From the NCBI GenBank assembly GCA_016870155.1, contig VGCE01000008.1, positions 1-64,000 on the forward strand: DNA of 64,000 bases. Reading direction: 5' to 3'. The notes under the pieces are model-generated. The model was not told where the DNA came from, searched no databases, and saw only the letters and a list, made by a program, of their open reading frames with translations. This document shows positions 9,958-18,313 of the stretch, one piece after another. This DNA is from Actinomycetota bacterium (GTDB taxonomy: Bacteria > Actinomycetota > Thermoleophilia > Miltoncostaeales > Miltoncostaeaceae). The number at the start of each line of letters is the position of its first letter. The first letter of the stretch is position 1. A program made the translations under genes and the position numbers.

Positions 9958-10551
9958 ATGCCTCTTCGCACCACCGCCATCCTCATCACCGCCGCCGCTG
10001 CCACGTCAGTCGCCCTGCTCGCAGGATGCGGAGGCAGCGCGTCTGAGGCGACCACGTCCACGGCGACGTCCACGACCGCCGTACGCAAGGCGGCGCCGCG
10101 GGCGGCGAGCAGGCCGGCGTGCCTCCCGAGCTGCGCGAACGCAGACCTCCGCGGCGTGACCCTGTCACTTTCTAGCCTCGCCAGGCTCGACTTCTCAGGG
10201 GCGGATCTCAGCGACGCAAGACTCACCCCTGCGTTCCTCCGCGATACGAATTTCACGGGCGCCAACCTCTCCCGCGCGCTTGTGGTTGACGGGCAGTTCC
10301 AGATGGTGAACTTCGAAGGCGCGAACCTCACGGGCGCGACCTTCGGGGGGATGCTCGGTCTCGGCGTGAACTTCACCGACGCGAACCTCACCGACGCGAT
10401 GTTCATCCGCGTGCTGGCCGGTAAGGTGAATTTCACCGGCGCGAACCTCACTGGCGCGCGCTTACGGGATACGACCTTCACCAGTTCGACCTTTTCCAAC
10501 ACCACCTGTCCCGACGGCAGCGTTACCAATACCGGCTGCTGGCCGCGGTGA
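9958..10551 (+). CDS. pentapeptide-repeat lipoprotein
   Basis: The 197-residue protein has a lipoprotein signal with lipobox LLAGC (Cys24) and a Thr/Ala-rich linker. From about residue 60 it has A(N/D)L-type pentapeptide repeats (DFSGADLSDARL, NFTGANLSRAL, NFTDANLTDAMF), which form a right-handed quadrilateral beta-helix. The tail is NTTCPDGSVTNTGC. A changed base at the usual stop adds WPR. It should be anchored to the outer face of the membrane. It is nearly identical in its linker to the truncated copy at 55756. Confidence 0.85.
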   Translation: MPLRTTAILITAAAATSVALLAGCGGSASEATTSTATSTTAVRKAAPRAASRPACLPSCANADLRGVTLSLSSLARLDFSGADLSDARLTPAFLRDTNFTGANLSRALVVDGQFQMVNFEGANLTGATFGGMLGLGVNFTDANLTDAMFIRVLAGKVNFTGANLTGARLRDTTFTSSTFSNTTCPDGSVTNTGCWPR

Positions 10552-10569
10552 CCCCCCAAGGAGCCTCCC

Positions 10570-11412
10570 ATGCGCCGCCTTCCCATCATCCTCACTGCCG
10601 CCGCCCTGGCGCTGCCCGCGGCCGCCGCAGCGTCGCCCGTCACGATCGGCACCGGTTCGAGGACCTGCGTCCTCAAGCCGAGTGCCGACTGCAGCAAGGT
10701 CACGTCCACGGCGCGCGTGGTGTTCTCGGGCAACCTCAAGGGCGCGAACTTCGCCGGGGCCACCCTGCGAAACGCCAACTTCCGGGGCGCGAACATCCGG
10801 GGGTCGAACTTCCGCCGGGCGCGGCTCGCCAACGTGAACCTGTCCAACGCAAACCTGACGGGCGCCAACTTCAGCGGGGTCAACCTCACCTCCACGCGGC
10901 TGAGGGGCAACCTCACGCGCGCCAACCTGTCGGGGGCGAACCTGGCCGGGGTCGACCTCACCAGCACCTCGCTCGACGGCGCCAACCTCGCGCGCGCCAA
11001 CCTCACGGGCACGCAGCTCACCGGTGCGGTCGCGTCGGGCGCGAACTTCTCGGGCGCCACCATGACCAACGCGATCATGGCCGGGGCCGTCGCGTACGGG
11101 GCCAACCTCACCGGGGCCAACCTCTCGGGTGCGAGCCTCACGTCCACCTGCATGAATGCCGCCAACCTGACCGGCGTGAACGCGCAGGGGGCGAACCTGT
11201 CGTTCGCGCTGCTCGGCGGGCCCATCCCCGCCACCCGGACCGGCGGCGACTACAACTCCGCCTGCGCCGCCGTCGCGACCACGTACACCGCGGGAGCCAA
11301 CCTGACGAACGCCAACCTCGTCGGGGCCAACCTGGCCGGCGCGATCGTGGTGGGCGTTGTCTGGACCGGCGCCACCTGCCCCAACGGCACCGTCACCAGC
11401 AGCGGGTGCTAG
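10570..11412 (+). CDS. secreted pentapeptide-repeat protein
   Basis: The start has AAGGAG six bases upstream. The 280-residue product has a Sec signal peptide (to about AAAAS, residue 20) and about 35 pentapeptide units (GANFAGATL, ANLTGANFS, GANLVGANLAG). A break at 217-240 contains two Cys. It ends in ATCPNGTVTSSGC, the signature shared with its neighbours. There is no lipobox, so it is probably secreted. The last 20 bp overlap convergently with mysD. Confidence 0.87.
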   Translation: MRRLPIILTAAALALPAAAAASPVTIGTGSRTCVLKPSADCSKVTSTARVVFSGNLKGANFAGATLRNANFRGANIRGSNFRRARLANVNLSNANLTGANFSGVNLTSTRLRGNLTRANLSGANLAGVDLTSTSLDGANLARANLTGTQLTGAVASGANFSGATMTNAIMAGAVAYGANLTGANLSGASLTSTCMNAANLTGVNAQGANLSFALLGGPIPATRTGGDYNSACAAVATTYTAGANLTNANLVGANLAGAIVVGVVWTGATCPNGTVTSSGC

Positions 11413-12460
11413 GTGGCTGAGAGGTAAAGCCCGAGCGCCATGCGGAGCCTCGACGCGCGTCGTCCAGCATCTGCGCGAACAACGTCTCAAGGGGGATTCC
11501 TGCGGCGGCCGCCATGGTGACGATCACGCTCGCCGGTGCGAATGAGCAGTAGGGCGATGACTCGAGGAACCACGGCACGCCCGCCGGGTCGACCCGGAAG
11601 TCGAAGAGCGAGTAGTGACGCGCCCCGAGCGCAGCATGGCAGCGGATCGCGGCATCCCGTACCGGCGCCGTGATCGGGTCGTCCGGGTCGACGATCCACG
11701 CGCGCGAGGAGTGCTTGGCCACCAGGTGGATCTCGCCGTCCGCGTCGCGGGCGATCTTGTCCGCGTGGGTCCTGATGGGCGCCGCCGGGTCGAGCGAATA
11801 CTCCTCGAGGGGGAGGCACACCAGCTCGCCACGACGCACGATGCATCCCGCCCGCACCTCGCGACCCAGCGGGATGAAATCCTCGACCAGCACCTCATCG
11901 GCATGTGCGAACGCCTCGTCCAGCGCGTCGGCGAGATCGGCATCCCGGAGGACCACGCCGACACCCAGTGAGTTGTCGGCGTCGACGGGCTTCACCACGA
12001 GCGGTGGCGACAGCGACGGCCGCTCGCCCGCGCGCAGCACCTGGCCATCGGGCACCCGAACCCCGGCGGCAGACACGACGGCCTTGGCCCGCGCCTTGTG
12101 CACCGCCAGCGCCATGGCGTCGGGCGTCTGGCCGACATAGGGAATGCCCAGTGCATCGATGAGCGACCGGTAGTGCGTCATCCCGGGGACGCAGAACATC
12201 TGGGGTACCACGACGTCGGGCTCGAACTGCAGGAGGCGCGCGATCGCCTCGGGCAGGGGAAGAGGCTGCGCGCTGTCGAGGGCCGCCCTGCTCAGGTCAT
12301 CCGGAAACCGCCAGCGGCCGTCCGGGGCTACATGGGCGATGCGGAACTCGTAGCGCACCGGATCGGCGGTAGCGGCGATGCAGTCCAGGGCGTAGCGGCG
12401 GGAGAGATCCTCGAGGAAGTCGCTCACCGGGGAGCCGGTGAGGTGCACGACGCGCACCAC
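11393..12460 (-). CDS. mysD: MysD-type D-Ala-D-Ala-ligase-like enzyme of mycosporine synthesis
   Basis: The 355-residue ATP-grasp protein starts at GTG, two bases after the mysC stop. The ATP-grasp parts are VVKPVDADNSLGVGVV (about 155-170), EDFIPLGREVRAG (193-205) and FLESSPYCSF near the end. In cyanobacterial MAA pathways MysD couples a second amino acid to mycosporine-glycine to give imino-MAAs such as shinorine or porphyra-334. The cluster position makes that role far more likely than cell-wall D-Ala-D-Ala synthesis. The amino acid used cannot be read from the sequence. Confidence 0.9.
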   Translation of the reverse strand: MVRVVHLTGSPVSDFLEDLSRRYALDCIAATADPVRYEFRIAHVAPDGRWRFPDDLSRAALDSAQPLPLPEAIARLLQFEPDVVVPQMFCVPGMTHYRSLIDALGIPYVGQTPDAMALAVHKARAKAVVSAAGVRVPDGQVLRAGERPSLSPPLVVKPVDADNSLGVGVVLRDADLADALDEAFAHADEVLVEDFIPLGREVRAGCIVRRGELVCLPLEEYSLDPAAPIRTHADKIARDADGEIHLVAKHSSRAWIVDPDDPITAPVRDAAIRCHAALGARHYSLFDFRVDPAGVPWFLESSPYCSFAPASVIVTMAAAAGIPLETLFAQMLDDARRGSAWRSGFTSQPPSTRCW

Positions 12461-12462
12461 GA

Positions 12463-13791
12463 TCAATCTCCGGCCGGCTCGACGAGCTTGCCGATGTTGA
12501 AGTCGATCCGCACCCATGCCGCCCGCCGCCGCAGGTTCCCGATGAGCAGCGCCGGGAGGTGCAGGGCATGGGCCATGAGGAACGGCAGGGGGTCCGAGGG
12601 GTCGAGGATGGCATCGGTGCCGCGCAGCACGATGCTCAGGCGCTCCCGGGCGTCGCGCGGCGCCGACACCAGCCGCCAGAGCTCGTGGTAGAGCCAGTAG
12701 GTGGGCCGGCTGCCGGGCCTGGGGCGGATCACCGGCACGCCATCCTCGAGGTACGCGCGGGCAAGGTCGGGGTGGTCGTGGAACAGCGTGATGGCCGAGT
12801 GGGTGCGGGGGTTGCATTCGATCGCGTAGAGCGCGCCGTCGTCGGCCTCGATGAAGTCGAACGACACCTGCCCTGTCAGGTCGAGGGGGAGGCAGAAGCG
12901 GGTGACCCAGTCCTCGATCCTGGGCTTGTCGACCATGGCGTAGTTCAACTGGAAGGGTGACGACTCGCAGCAGCAGTAGACCTGCACGCGTCCGCCACGA
13001 ACCGTGCTGTGGGTGCAGTACTCGGTGCCCGGGATGAACTCCTGCAGCACCCATGGGTTCTCTTCGCTGATGGGCTTCTGCAGCGCGAACCTGTGGGTTT
13101 CCTCCGGCGTCGGCCGCGGGAGGGGGGTCAGGTCGAGTCGTTCCACCGGGTCGTACGCGATGCTCTTGAGGATGTACGGGCGCGCGGATCGCGAGAAGTC
13201 GAAGGCGAGCACCTCATCGGCCGACGTCACCCGATGCGTGTCGGGCACCGACAGGCCGGCCGCCGCCGCCATGGCCGCGAATTGGTGCTTGTCGTCGAGG
13301 CCCGCCAGCAGGCCGGGGTCTGCGTGGATCACCTCGCAGTGGGGGGACAGGATCTCCTTCGCCTGAGCGTCGAAGTAGCTCGCGACCGGGCTGCACACCG
13401 GCACGTAGACATCGACGTCCTCCGCGCGCACGATATCGAGCAGGGCCTGGGCATATCCGCTGTCGGTGGGATCCGGCACCACATGGAACGCATCGACGGC
13501 ACGTGAGAACCGGTGCCCCGTGAAGCGATACCGGGCCGTCTCGACGAGCACCACCCGGTGGCCTGCATCGTGGAACGAGCGGGCCAGCTGCAGCGCCTTG
13601 GTCATCTTCCCGCCGCTGACCATGACCGTGCGCCTCGGACCGGGGCGCGGCGGCGCGGATGCCCTGCGGGCACCCCGCAGCGCGGCTGTGGCCGTGAGCG
13701 CGAGGTTGACCGGCACCATGGCCGCCATCAGGCCGAGCGCCCCGAGGGTGCGGGCGCCGCCACCGGACCCGCCCGGGCGCCGGTGACTCAT
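12463..13791 (-). CDS. mysC: MysC-type ATP-grasp ligase (mycosporine-glycine synthase)
   Basis: The 442-residue protein matches cyanobacterial MysC along its length as I recall that family. It has an N-terminal membrane-like helix (15-40), then MVSGGKMTKALQLARSFH (57-74), VYVPVCSPVASYFDA, YILKSIAYDPV, QEFIPGTEYCTHSTVR and AIECNPRTHSAITLF, with ATP/Mg ligands Glu325 and Asn327. It ends RIDFNIGKLVE. MysC joins glycine to 4-deoxygadusol. The ATG at 13791 overlaps the dioxygenase stop (ATGA). Confidence 0.95.
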   Translation of the reverse strand: MSHRRPGGSGGGARTLGALGLMAAMVPVNLALTATAALRGARRASAPPRPGPRRTVMVSGGKMTKALQLARSFHDAGHRVVLVETARYRFTGHRFSRAVDAFHVVPDPTDSGYAQALLDIVRAEDVDVYVPVCSPVASYFDAQAKEILSPHCEVIHADPGLLAGLDDKHQFAAMAAAAGLSVPDTHRVTSADEVLAFDFSRSARPYILKSIAYDPVERLDLTPLPRPTPEETHRFALQKPISEENPWVLQEFIPGTEYCTHSTVRGGRVQVYCCCESSPFQLNYAMVDKPRIEDWVTRFCLPLDLTGQVSFDFIEADDGALYAIECNPRTHSAITLFHDHPDLARAYLEDGVPVIRPRPGSRPTYWLYHELWRLVSAPRDARERLSIVLRGTDAILDPSDPLPFLMAHALHLPALLIGNLRRRAAWVRIDFNIGKLVEPAGD

Positions 13792-14609
13792 GCCCCGTTG
13801 CCGGGGCGGGCGATCACCAGGCCCCGGTGCAGGGTGCGGATGCCGTCCACCCCCGAGTGGTCCGCCTTGTGCAGCACGCACCGGTTGTCCCACATGATGA
13901 CGTCACCCGGCGACCACGCATGCCGGTAGATGTTGTCCTCGGCCGTGCAGTGCAGGTAGAGCGATTCAATGCTCGCCCGGGCGTCCGCGTCGGCCATGCC
14001 GCTCACGGTCGCGCATCGCTGGGGGGTCGATATGTAGATCGTGGTGCGACCCGACACCGGATGCCGCTGGAAGACCCGGTGGTCCGCGCGTGACTCGTCG
14101 CCGGCGCCGAGGTCCACGCCGGTCGCCACATGGGTGGCGCTGCGTCCATCGAGCGTGGCCTTGAGGTGATCAGGCAGGGTGTCGAAGGCCCGGTACTGAT
14201 TGGTGAAGAGCGTCTCCCCGCCGCGCTCCGGTAGCACCACCGCGCGCAGCGCCGTGTAGGTAGGCGGTTGCCGCACGTAGCTGGTGTCGGTATGGAACGA
14301 ACTGCGCGGGGGTTCCGTCCGGCCTTCGTTGCTCACCACGTTGAGGTCGGGATGCCCCTGCACGGGGGTCTCCCCCCGGGTGAAGGTGAGGGTCCCGAAG
14401 CGCGCGAGGAACCTCACGAAGCCCGCGTCGTCGATGTCCTGGCCCGTGAAGATGACGACCCCATGATCGGCGAGCACCTCCACGAGGAAGTCCACGGCCC
14501 CGGGCGGCAGGTCGTCGAGGTCGAGGCCGCTCACCGTGGCGCCGACAGGCGGGTGGGGCGTCACGTCGATGTCATCCCGCCAGGCCGTCGATGGGTTCGT
14601 GGTGGCCAT
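13788..14609 (-). CDS. TauD/TfdA-family Fe(II)/2-oxoglutarate dioxygenase within the MAA operon
   Basis: The 273-residue enzyme has the facial triad of TauD proteins: FHTDTSY (His106, Asp108) and the distal DNRCVLHKA (His247), plus Arg262 (TLHRGLV), likely to bind 2-oxoglutarate. It lies between mysB and mysC, four bases from the first and overlapping the second, so it is made with the pathway. The known MAA dioxygenase MysH is PhyH-like; this one belongs to another subfamily. It probably tailors a mycosporine by hydroxylation, N-dealkylation or decarboxylation. Its substrate is unknown. Confidence 0.88.
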   Translation of the reverse strand: MATTNPSTAWRDDIDVTPHPPVGATVSGLDLDDLPPGAVDFLVEVLADHGVVIFTGQDIDDAGFVRFLARFGTLTFTRGETPVQGHPDLNVVSNEGRTEPPRSSFHTDTSYVRQPPTYTALRAVVLPERGGETLFTNQYRAFDTLPDHLKATLDGRSATHVATGVDLGAGDESRADHRVFQRHPVSGRTTIYISTPQRCATVSGMADADARASIESLYLHCTAEDNIYRHAWSPGDVIMWDNRCVLHKADHSGVDGIRTLHRGLVIARPGNGA

Positions 14610-14612
14610 GCC

Positions 14613-15446
14613 TCAGCCCGCGTCCGTCAGGCGCACGATCGTCACGCCGTCGCGCAGGGGGACCAGCACCTGATCCACCCGGGGGTCATCGGCCACCATC
14701 CGGTTGAACTCCCTGATCGCATCACCGGCATCGGACGACCTCCCGGTCACGTACGCGTGCCCCTGCAGGAGCGTGTTGTCCACGCACATCACCCCATGCG
14801 GGGCCAGCAGGCCACCGTCGATCACGGCCTCGAAGTAGTCGGCATACCCAGCCTTGTCGGCATCGAGGAAAATGAAGTCGAACGGCGCGCCCTCGGCGGC
14901 GAGCCGGCGCAGGGTGTCGGCGGCCGCGCCGACCTCCACCACGATCTTCCCGCCATGCGGGGACCCCGCGAATGCCTGCCGGGCCAGATGCGCGGCGTCC
15001 GCGTTGATCTCGCAGGCGACCACGACGCCGTCCTCGGGCAGGGCCTCCGCCATCGCCAGCGCGGAGTACCCGGTGAACATCCCGACCTCGAGGACCCGCC
15101 GCGAGCGCGTTATGGCGACGAGCATCTTGAGGAATTGGCCCTCGACATGGCCGGACAGCATCTCGGCCTCGAGCGCGCCCGCGGCTGAGGCCCGACCGGC
15201 GGACCAGTCGGTGGCGGCGGTGTGGTGCGCGAGGCTCTTCAGGGCTGGCGACTCCGGCGTGGTGCATTCGGCCGCGTAGGGCTCGAGCCCCGCAGCCAGT
15301 TCACCGGCGTCGAGCAGCGCGGACATCAGCGATTGGTCGGTCACGGCCGACCAGTGATCGTCTCCGGCGATGCCCCGCAGCGACGCGGCGAGGATTCCCA
15401 CCGGCGTCACGGGGCGCAGCGCCCTCGCCCCCGGGTCAACGGCCAC
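14613..15446 (-). CDS. mysB: MysB O-methyltransferase (4-deoxygadusol formation)
   Basis: The 277-residue protein starts at GTG nine bases after the mysA stop. Motifs include LEPYAAECTTPESPALKSL, EAEMLSGHVEGQFLKM, LEVGMFTGYSALAMAEALP (SAM site), FDFIFLDADKAGYADYF and CVDNTLLQGHAYV. The order and wording match cyanobacterial MysB, which O-methylates the cyclase product to give 4-deoxygadusol. The O-MT fold is of the metal-dependent COMT type. Confidence 0.94.
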   Translation of the reverse strand: MAVDPGARALRPVTPVGILAASLRGIAGDDHWSAVTDQSLMSALLDAGELAAGLEPYAAECTTPESPALKSLAHHTAATDWSAGRASAAGALEAEMLSGHVEGQFLKMLVAITRSRRVLEVGMFTGYSALAMAEALPEDGVVVACEINADAAHLARQAFAGSPHGGKIVVEVGAAADTLRRLAAEGAPFDFIFLDADKAGYADYFEAVIDGGLLAPHGVMCVDNTLLQGHAYVTGRSSDAGDAIREFNRMVADDPRVDQVLVPLRDGVTIVRLTDAG

Positions 15447-15455
15447 CGCGCATCC

Positions 15456-16679
15456 TCAGCGCCAGCCAAGGGTGCTGGCGGGCACGTACATGTCGCACCC
15501 GTCCCCGCCGAGGGGATACCCGGCGCACAGCTCGCGGTGCACCGCAAGGGCACCGAGCAGCTCCTCCATGCTGAGGTCACTCACGAACCGGCACGTGCCG
15601 ATGGGGTCGGGCATCGCGGCCCGCAGCAGTCCCCCGCGCGTCTTGATGATGGAGGCCGTGGCCTCCTCGAGCAGGTCCGGGGTCATGTACGGGCTGTCGA
15701 GTGCCAGTCCCACGCTCGACATAAGCGCCAGGATGCGATCGCGATCCTGCGCGGAGATGTAGCCACGCTCCCCAGCGATCGTCGCAGACAGCGCCATGTC
15801 GATCGTGACGGCATGCCCGTGGAAGAGCGGGGGATCCGGCGCGAGCTCGAGGGTCGGGCTCCAGGTGTGGCCGAAGGCGATCACGCGATCGAGGTCGCGC
15901 TCATGGAGGTTCGGCACCTCGAGTTCCAGCATCACCCGGATCGCCTCGTAGGTCACCTCATGGCCGACCGCGAGCAGCTCCGGCGTGCCATCGGTGTACC
16001 CGAAGCGCGTTTGCACGAGGGCCTCGCCATGCTCCTCCAGGCGTACGAACAGGGCCTCGTCGGCCACGACGGCGATCTTCACCAGCTCTGCGAAGCCGTT
16101 TCGCACCTGGTCGATCGGGAGCGTCTTGAGGAACGAGAAGTCGAGGATGACGTCCTTCGACGCGTGGTAGGCGCCGAGGCGGTTCTTGGCCTTGCGGTGG
16201 TTCACCGCCACCTTGATCGACACGCTGGCGTCGACCAGGCCGATGAGCGTGGTCGGCACCCGGATGTAGTCGGTGGACCGCCGGTAGGCGGCGCAGGCGA
16301 AGCCGGCGATGTCCGTGGTCAGCCCTCCGCCGACGACGAGCACCTGCTCGGTGCGTAGGAGCCCGAACTGATCGAACTCATCGACCACGGCCTCGAGCGT
16401 GGTCATCGCCTTGCCGGGCTCGGCGACATCGAGGGTGAACACCGTGAGGTCGATGCCGTGGTGTGCGAAGTACGCGGCGATCTGCGGCCCGTAGAGCTCG
16501 TGGACCGCGTCATCGATCACCAGCAGGCAGCGCCCGAACTCCCGGTACGCCGAGGCGATCTCGTCGTTGGCGACCTCGAAGGCGCCGTCGACGTATCGGA
16601 GGCGGTAGTCGATTCGCTCGACCGCCGAAACGTGGAAGGCGCGCGGTTCCGCGCGAAATGATCCGATGACTTCGCTCAT
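15456..16679 (-). CDS. mysA: sedoheptulose-7-phosphate cyclase, desmethyl-4-deoxygadusol synthase type (MysA)
   Basis: The 407-residue member of the dehydroquinate synthase superfamily has [20 protein letters not shown] (NAD site), [45 protein letters not shown] and FHGHAVTID. Probable zinc ligands are Glu198, His271 and His287. [19 protein letters not shown] separates it from AroB and places it with the sugar-phosphate cyclases of MAA clusters. The closely related 2-epi-5-epi-valiolone synthase is an alternative, but mysB next door favours DDGS. The ATG overlaps the HAD-gene stop. Confidence 0.94.
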
Positions 16680-17359
16680 GCCGGTGCCCTCCCGTTGTTG
16701 CGGGCGCCCGCCTCGTGCAGCACGCCCGTATTGATCCGCTCCACCACGATGGCGCCTCCGAAGTCGTGATCCTGTGTATTTGCGTTCGGGAACGCGATGC
16801 AGGCGAGGCCCGCTGCCGAGGCGGCCATGACGCCCCCCACGTTGTCCTCGACGGCCACGCACGAGGGCGCGCCCTCGCCGAGAGCCGTGAGGGCGTGCAG
16901 GTAGGCATCGGGCGCGGGCTTGGGGCTGTCAACCTGCGACGAGTCGACCACCACGTCGAAGTCATCCCGACCCAGCTGGGGCGCGAGCGCGTCGAGGACC
17001 GCCGCGACGTTCCCGGGCGAGGTCGTCGTGACCAGCGCCACGGCGATGCCCGATCGCCTCGCCTCGTCGATGGTCTCCGCAACGCCCGGCCGGGGCGTCA
17101 GCTCGCTCGCCCCGAGCAGTTCGTGGAAACGGATGGTCTTGGTCGCGTGCACTGCGGGCGCGTCGACGGTGACGCCGCGCTCCCTGGCGTATGCGGCGAC
17201 CCTCCCGGTCCCCCCGCTGCTCACGAGGAGCGCCCGGTAGCAATCATGGTCCCACTGCCAGTCGAGACCGTGTTCGGCAAAGGCATCGTTGAAGGCGTGT
17301 CGCTGCAGTTCAGACGCGTCCATGACGGTGCCGATAGATCCGAAGAGGATCGCGCGCAC
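16676..17359 (-). CDS. HAD-like phosphatase-family protein without the motif I aspartates
   Basis: The GTG start has an ideal ribosome site (AGGAGG, six bases before) and gives 227 residues. It is first in the mys operon. The HAD fold is clear: VALVTTTS (motif II), [11 protein letters not shown] (motif III Lys) and [14 protein letters not shown] (motif IV). Motif I, normally DxDGT, reads FGSIGTVMD, so both Asp, including the nucleophile (position 7), are missing. It is thus not an ordinary HAD phosphatase. It could be a regulatory or scaffolding relative, or an unusual subfamily. Confidence 0.85.
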
Positions 17360-17511
17360 GTTGACCTCCTGAAGAGATGGAGAGTGAAGACTGATCATTC
17401 TCCCCCCGCACCGCAATGGGGATCCGTAGATGTTGTTACGTCACTCGGCCGGCGCGTGGTCATGCAGGTGCGCCGCTACGATCACGTCGACTGCCCCCCG
17501 CACATCTGAGG

Positions 17512-17601
17512 GGCGCGAATCTCGGCCGGGCCAACCTCACGGGCGCTATCTTCTCAGGCACCATGTGACCCAATGGCACGGTCACGAATAGCGGCTGCTG
17601 A
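17512..17601 (+). pseudogene. C-terminal remnant of a pentapeptide-repeat protein
   Basis: The frame reads GANLGRANLTGAIFSGTM, then TGA where the family has the first Cys codon of TCP, then PNGTVTNSGC and a stop. It therefore carries a nonsense change as well as a lost N-terminus. Together with the remnant at 9855 it brackets the pentapeptide genes and the mys operon. Confidence 0.75.
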
Positions 17602-18313
17602 TCGACTGATACCGATCCGCGCCATCATCACGTCCGACCTCCACGGGAACCTGCCGTCCGATGATGTGCTGCCCGCCGGTGACCTGCTCGTGATCTGCGG
17701 CGATATCTGCCCGGACGGGCCCCGGCGTCCGGCAGACCCGCACCTGCAGGCCGAGTGGCTCAATGGCCCTTTCCGCGAATGGCTCACCGCACAGAGCGCG
17801 AGGTACTCCGGTGTCGCCGGGATCGCCGGCAACCACGACTTCGGCTTTGAGCGCGGCCTCCAGCCCCGGGACCTGCCCTGGGTCTATTTGGAGGATTCAG
17901 GCGAGGAGATTGCAGGACTTCGCGTCTGGGGCTCACCGTGGGTCACGCTGCCCGGGTGGGCGTTCCATCGCCGAGACGAGGATATCGCCCGCGCCCTTGT
18001 GCACGCTCCGGCTGGAGAGGTGGACCTGCTCATCACCCATGGCCCACCCCGTGGGATACTCGACTTGTCGTACCGGGGGAAGCCCCGTGGGTCGATGTCC
18101 ACCATCGCCGAGACCGCGCGCATAGCACCGGTCGTCCATGCCTTCGGGCACATCCACGAGCAGTACGGAACCCGCTCGGTCGACTGCACACTATTCGTGA
18201 ATGCGAGCTACTGCGACTACCGATACCGTCCGTTGCAGGCACCGATGGTGATCGACATCGACCGCTCCACCAGGACTGCCCAGGTCATCGCGCGCGGCCG
18301 GCGATCGGAATGA
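17573..18313 (+). CDS. calcineurin-like metallophosphoesterase
   Basis: Up to 246 residues. Metal-site motifs are present in order: ITSDLHGN, VICGDICPDG, GIAGNHDF, LLITHGPP and AFGHIHEQYG. The only ATG near the fold start (17573) lies inside the pentapeptide remnant, so the native start may have been lost and replaced by recombination. The 5' region is uncertain. It probably hydrolyses a phosphodiester or phosphomonoester; the substrate is unknown. Confidence 0.8.
   Translation: MARSRIAAADRLIPIRAIITSDLHGNLPSDDVLPAGDLLVICGDICPDGPRRPADPHLQAEWLNGPFREWLTAQSARYSGVAGIAGNHDFGFERGLQPRDLPWVYLEDSGEEIAGLRVWGSPWVTLPGWAFHRRDEDIARALVHAPAGEVDLLITHGPPRGILDLSYRGKPRGSMSTIAETARIAPVVHAFGHIHEQYGTRSVDCTLFVNASYCDYRYRPLQAPMVIDIDRSTRTAQVIARGRRSE

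Follow-up and report, generated by a model that had tools for sequence, protein, structure and literature searches.

A mycosporine-like amino acid operon from an actinobacterium encodes a HAD-like protein that has lost the catalytic aspartates of motif I

The stretch of DNA analysed here, referred to below as the window, comprises 64,000 nucleotides of an Actinomycetota genome assembly (contig VGCE01000008.1). Six intact open reading frames run along its minus strand from position 17359 to position 11393 in the order HAD, mysA, mysB, tauD, mysC and mysD. The first (17359-16676, 227 aa, GTG start) encodes a HAD-like protein. It is followed by mysA (16679-15456, 407 aa), which encodes a sedoheptulose-7-phosphate cyclase of the desmethyl-4-deoxygadusol synthase type, by mysB (15446-14613, 277 aa, GTG start) for a class I O-methyltransferase, and by tauD (14609-13788, 273 aa) for a TauD/TfdA Fe(II)/2-oxoglutarate dioxygenase. 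Two ATP-grasp genes complete the set, namely mysC (13791-12463, 442 aa), whose product is a ligase of the mycosporine-glycine synthase type, and mysD (12466-11393), whose D-Ala-D-Ala-ligase-like product measures 357 aa when read from a TTG codon, with GTG codons at 12460 or 12457 as alternative starts. Neighboring genes either overlap by 4 nt (HAD/mysA, tauD/mysC and mysC/mysD) or are separated by 9 nt (mysA/mysB) and 3 nt (mysB/tauD). These coordinates agree with an initial annotation of the locus, which had placed six genes on one strand with overlaps or gaps of fewer than ten bases, a HAD gene ahead of mysA and a TauD gene between mysB and mysC.

All six proteins fall into the expected families in Pfam and NCBIfam. 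MysB matches Methyltransf_3 (168 bits), and its synteny is kept at homologous loci; MysC matches ATP-grasp_3 and NF005315 and is 57-72% identical to the MysC proteins of other actinobacterial mycosporine-like amino acid (MAA) loci; MysD matches Dala_Dala_lig_C. MysA aligns over nearly its full length (residues 2-398) with PDB chain 5tpr, which we take to be the MysA of Anabaena, at 551 bits, compared with 272 bits for the ValA-type cyclase 4p53, presumably the valiolone synthase ValA, and at most 130 bits for dehydroquinate synthases. With a score to 5tpr about twice that to 4p53, MysA passes the test against valiolone synthases, by comparison of scores rather than by a tree with reference valiolone synthases, and an aminocyclitol (valiolone) pathway was rejected on these scores. 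The genes for the O-methyltransferase, MysC and MysD adjoin mysA, as they do in a mysABCD cluster, and the assignment of mysA-D to MAA biosynthesis made in the initial annotation is upheld by the MysA scores together with the Pfam families. More divergent cyclases occur at other loci. Two MAA operons with the order A-HAD-B-C-D-T (L172 in genome G247 and L173 in genome G108) encode a cyclase 38% identical to MysA of the window, which in G247 scores 239 bits to 5tpr and 186 bits to 4p53; cyclases of approximately 35% identity are found in a Flammeovirgaceae MAG (L079) and a planctomycete (L104).

The cyanobacterial mysABCD genes of the shinorine pathway encode MysA, MysB, MysC and MysD proteins that are homologous to, and collinear with, those of the window operon. 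A typical cyanobacterial cluster, however, lacks both HAD and TauD genes, and the window operon has both. The GATOR-GC paper of 2025 reported that MAA clusters in Actinomycetota, Pseudomonadota and Bacillota conserve two genes not described before, HAD and TauD/TfdA, and called the role of HAD in these clusters unvalidated (PMC11888242). The actinobacterial clusters of that study, including one from Pseudonocardia alni, contain the same gene set with a dehydroquinate-synthase-like MysA, an O-methyltransferase, an ATP-grasp enzyme, a D-Ala-ligase-like enzyme, HAD and TauD (PMC11888242), and the window likewise displays the co-location of HAD and TauD/TfdA with mysABC in an actinobacterium. Given that HAD and TauD are conserved in published MAA clusters, the window operon is a further example of a described architecture. 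Judged from its genes, it is a complete bacterial MAA operon with a layout previously known from actinobacteria, and the conservation of its order and gene set is far beyond chance. Apparently undescribed is the loss of the catalytic aspartates from a protein that the GATOR-GC study calls merely HAD (PMC11888242).

The HAD-like protein matches Pfam Hydrolase/HAD_2, and its nearest relatives in the PDB are the CbbY chains 4uat and 4uar. Its motif I reads FGSIGT, as opposed to FDVDGT in CbbY, the nearest characterized relative. An alignment of 88 such proteins was assembled from 80 named genome loci found in one profile scan, from loci found in whole-genome searches and from one plasmid. Across this alignment motif I is FGSI(S/G)T, versus FDxDGT in CbbY relatives, and we refer to these proteins as GSI HADs. 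Position 7 is glycine and position 8 serine in 88 of 88 sequences, and position 9 is isoleucine in 86 and leucine in the other two (the window protein has G7 and I9); D7 and D9 are present in 37 of 37 CbbY relatives. Both catalytic aspartates of motif I are missing from every one of the 88 GSI HADs, and the altered motif is nearly invariant across actinobacteria, cyanobacteria, proteobacteria, a planctomycete and a bacteroidete. K147, E171 and D172 of the phosphate and metal site and, in the cap, R53 and K74 are kept throughout (88/88). S16, Q19 and N173 are also switched relative to CbbY, with an invariance of S16 and Q19 that is partly circular because the peptide patterns of the profile scan (SELQRxAFN and AFxxHGLxW) covered both residues; motif I lay outside these patterns.

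An AlphaFold model of the HAD-like protein shows a confident HAD fold (pLDDT 94.2) that superimposes on CbbY 4uar with a TM score of 0.86. The xylulose-1,5-bisphosphate phosphatase CbbY (4uar, 4uat) has this fold in common with the HAD-like protein, 39-40% identity over the aligned part, and the same cap and motif III/IV residues, but its DxD of motif I is GSI here. Among the hallmarks of a catalytic phosphatase, the fold, the motif III lysine (K147) and the motif IV acids (E171 and D172) are therefore in place and the motif I DxD, source of the nucleophile and the general acid/base, is gone. In a quick tree of 138 HADs, a branch with SH-aLRT support of 99 separates all GSI proteins from the rest; by their sequences, the GSI HADs are one clade. 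The HAD-like protein is thus a predicted pseudo-phosphatase, and a label that is taken to mean an enzyme sits poorly with a sequence devoid of these two residues. A search of the accessible literature, which lacks most subscription papers, found no account of the missing aspartates. The loss of motif I sharpens the question left open by the GATOR-GC authors, namely what part HAD plays in MAA biosynthesis.

The GSI HAD travels closely with MAA genes. At 17 of the 80 named loci the gene order is HAD-A-B-T-C-D, as in the window, and at 38 further loci it is HAD-A-B-C-D-T; at least two mys genes are present at 58 of the 62 loci with enough flanking sequence, and TauD is also present at 55 of those 58, figures that tell what accompanies HAD and not the reverse because the loci were chosen by HAD. 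The initial annotation had proposed a neighborhood search for HAD and TauD beside mys genes in actinobacteria, and a search by MysC only, across 396 Actinomycetota genomes, finds six positive genomes (that of the window included), all six with a GSI HAD and five with TauD. The two genes which that annotation set apart as non-standard members are accordingly normal companions of actinobacterial MAA genes, in line with the published clusters (PMC11888242).

Among cyanobacteria, HAD occurs in one of the 41 MysC-positive genomes in a sample of 386; cyanobacterial MAA clusters mostly do without it, so HAD is unnecessary for the core chemistry there. Seven cyanobacterial loci do carry HAD (L064, L076, L080, L084, L090, L096 and L110). 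They form a single group in the tree, TauD adjoins HAD in five of them, and they contradict the statement that HAD and TauD are absent from Cyanobacteriota (PMC11888242). Four MAA clusters contain HAD with no close TauD nearby (L037, L048, L059 and one in genome G214). The presence of HAD in TauD-less clusters indicates that it does not serve TauD alone, and a role as partner of TauD only is unsupported on this ground.

The TauD protein of the window matches Pfam TauD at 187 bits, and its iron triad (H106, D108 and H247) and 2OG-binding R258 are invariant in all 26 aligned proteins. Its predicted structure (pLDDT 92.6) is closest in fold to AAD-1, RdpA and TauD, and from these features the enzyme looks active. 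Palythine formation is attributed to MysH, a PhyH-family enzyme of the phytanoyl-CoA dioxygenase type. The same kind of reaction is proposed for MysH as for TauD here, but the families differ (PhyH, PF05721, versus TauD), and the host genome has no match to PF05721. A MysH-type PhyH enzyme was also considered as a replacement where TauD is absent and was rejected: three genomes with TauD-less clusters have PhyH matches, but on contigs other than that of the cluster, and two cyanobacterial genomes with TauD-less clusters have none. A further counterpart is MysI, a TauD-type enzyme of cyanobacterial MAA clusters in Nostoc sp. UHCC 0926, which is accompanied by MysF and the NRPS-type MysE and is proposed to act on the glycine at C3 (PMC10510106). 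Compared by description only, MysI and the window protein share the TauD/TfdA superfamily, the MAA-cluster setting and a proposed trimming of glycine. Across 234 cyanobacteria, the HAD-linked cyanobacterial TauD finds its best TauD matches at 28-35% identity.

From these assignments we infer a pathway in which MysA would cyclize sedoheptulose 7-phosphate, methylation by MysB would give 4-deoxygadusol, and MysC would join glycine to it, forming mycosporine-glycine. MysD would attach a second amino acid to yield a disubstituted MAA, an imine of the shinorine or porphyra type. TauD would most likely introduce a hydroxyl group at the alpha carbon of the side-chain glycine, and collapse of the resulting hemiaminal would release glyoxylate and leave the free amine of a palythine-type sunscreen, in the manner suggested for MysH and MysI. 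The HAD-like protein would most likely act as a non-catalytic binder of a sugar-phosphate or acyl-phosphate, or of a partner enzyme, without hydrolysis; it is taken as such because the motif I aspartates are replaced, whereas K147, E171, D172, R53 and K74 have been retained. An unpublished abstract of 2018, as cited in PMC11888242, reportedly obtained shinorine, palythine and palythine-serine from a Rhodococcus fascians operon with HAD and TauD. Going by this second-hand account and by analogy, a palythine-type compound is the most likely product. The modified sunscreen foreseen in the initial annotation is plausible in this form; nothing favors the osmolyte that it offered as an alternative. 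Overall, homology and analogy make it reasonably probable that the operon yields a palythine-type MAA, with TauD trimming the glycine and the HAD-like protein serving as a non-catalytic, phosphate-ligand-binding partner of the pathway.

Two departures from this scheme deserve consideration. TauD could modify the MAA otherwise than by trimming the C1 glycine, either through a hydroxylation or desaturation that is kept in the product or by trimming the C3 residue, as proposed for the TauD-type MysI (PMC10510106). Regiochemistry is unreadable from sequence, but the products attributed to R. fascians in the unpublished abstract cited in PMC11888242 include palythine and palythine-serine, and we regard such a different modification as unlikely. 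Secondly, the loss of the aspartate nucleophile would be compatible with some other catalytic activity of the HAD-like protein. Its GSI pocket might have been recruited for a reaction that does not involve phosphoryl transfer, perhaps one that resolves the product hydroxylated by TauD or one that corrects a wrongly phosphorylated intermediate. Motif I is not just lost, since a nearly invariant GSI(S/G) stands in its place, and the switch of S16, Q19 and N173 (the first two partly a product of the search pattern) also fits a new activity. So does the pairing of adjacent HAD and TauD genes in two proteobacteria that lack a close MysC, a Polaromonas MAG (L141:9268-10741, G303) and an alphaproteobacterium (L207:8239-9653, G930); a MysC search finds no relative in the former and a 28% match at best in the latter, absences that are provisional because draft genomes can miss genes. 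Against a new activity, HAD is also found without TauD and, in Roseibium, alone. To our knowledge, no HAD enzyme of the CbbY branch works without its nucleophile. A neofunctionalized enzyme is thus a doubtful alternative to the non-catalytic binder favored here.

On a broader and more tentative view, the GSI HAD may be a conserved pseudo-phosphatase that, outside typical cyanobacteria, has become a dedicated component of MAA biosynthesis with no hydrolytic role, and which together with TauD would constitute a portable MAA-processing module carried by some proteobacteria without MAA synthesis genes. Orphan GSI HADs with no MAA genes nearby occur on the Roseobacter litoralis plasmid pROLI81 (L142:7992-8663), in two Roseibium genomes where HAD stands alone (L097 and L107) and at L208. 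The neighbors of the orphans in Roseibium, Polaromonas and the Roseobacter plasmid have no common theme; Trk potassium uptake, SOUL haem proteins, an SDR, a TRAP transporter and a Crp regulator are among the contexts seen.

Within the host genus, MysC is present in the genome of the window and in one other of 20 genomes, and the rest of the family yields a 32% match only. In the sister genome (G330) all six genes recur with their order unchanged, HAD-A-B-T-C-D, but at a different site, between argS and a photolyase-related gene. In the window, a pentapeptide-repeat protein gene on the plus strand (10570..11412) lies downstream, tail to tail with mysD and overlapping it by 20 nt, and a degenerate 3' remnant of a pentapeptide-repeat gene (17491..17609, plus strand; direct-repeat families D1, D2 and D4) lies upstream. 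MysD has approximately 15 more C-terminal residues than the sister MysD, and these read into the pentapeptide gene region. We infer that the operon was inserted into a pentapeptide-gene array, because such genes flank it on both sides, the tail is degenerate and mysD runs into its neighbor. A silent or decaying operon that makes no product in this host would accord with such an insertion, with the reading of the mysD end into the flanking gene region and with the presence of MysC in just one of the 19 other genus genomes. Its six frames are intact and tightly spaced, however, the active site of TauD is complete and the sister genome keeps the gene order at its different site, all of which make a silent operon quite improbable.

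Automatic annotation would make the HAD-like protein a working sugar phosphatase that supplies or repairs a phosphorylated intermediate, and the CbbY fold and family and the retained K147, E171 and D172 might suggest the same. This reading is very unlikely indeed and was rejected on motif I, for both aspartates are missing in 88 of 88 members, and CbbY was crystallized together with its substrate as the single D10N mutant, according to the titles of 4uat and 4uau. The automated label of HAD hydrolase consequently misleads for a gene with the GSI motif, whose product is most improbable as an ordinary HAD phosphatase.

Some smaller observations concern the surroundings of these genes. The tandem pentapeptide-repeat genes at 9958-11412 are intact, the degenerate tail (17491-17609) lies on the far side of the operon, and the stop codon of mysD is antisense to the neighboring pentapeptide gene. 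In the sister genome, the gene that follows the MAA operon (L140:8517-10493) is related to deoxyribodipyrimidine photolyase, which fits a UV-protection island. The HAD of another genome of the same phylum (G278) is identical to that of Rhodococcoides corynebacterioides.
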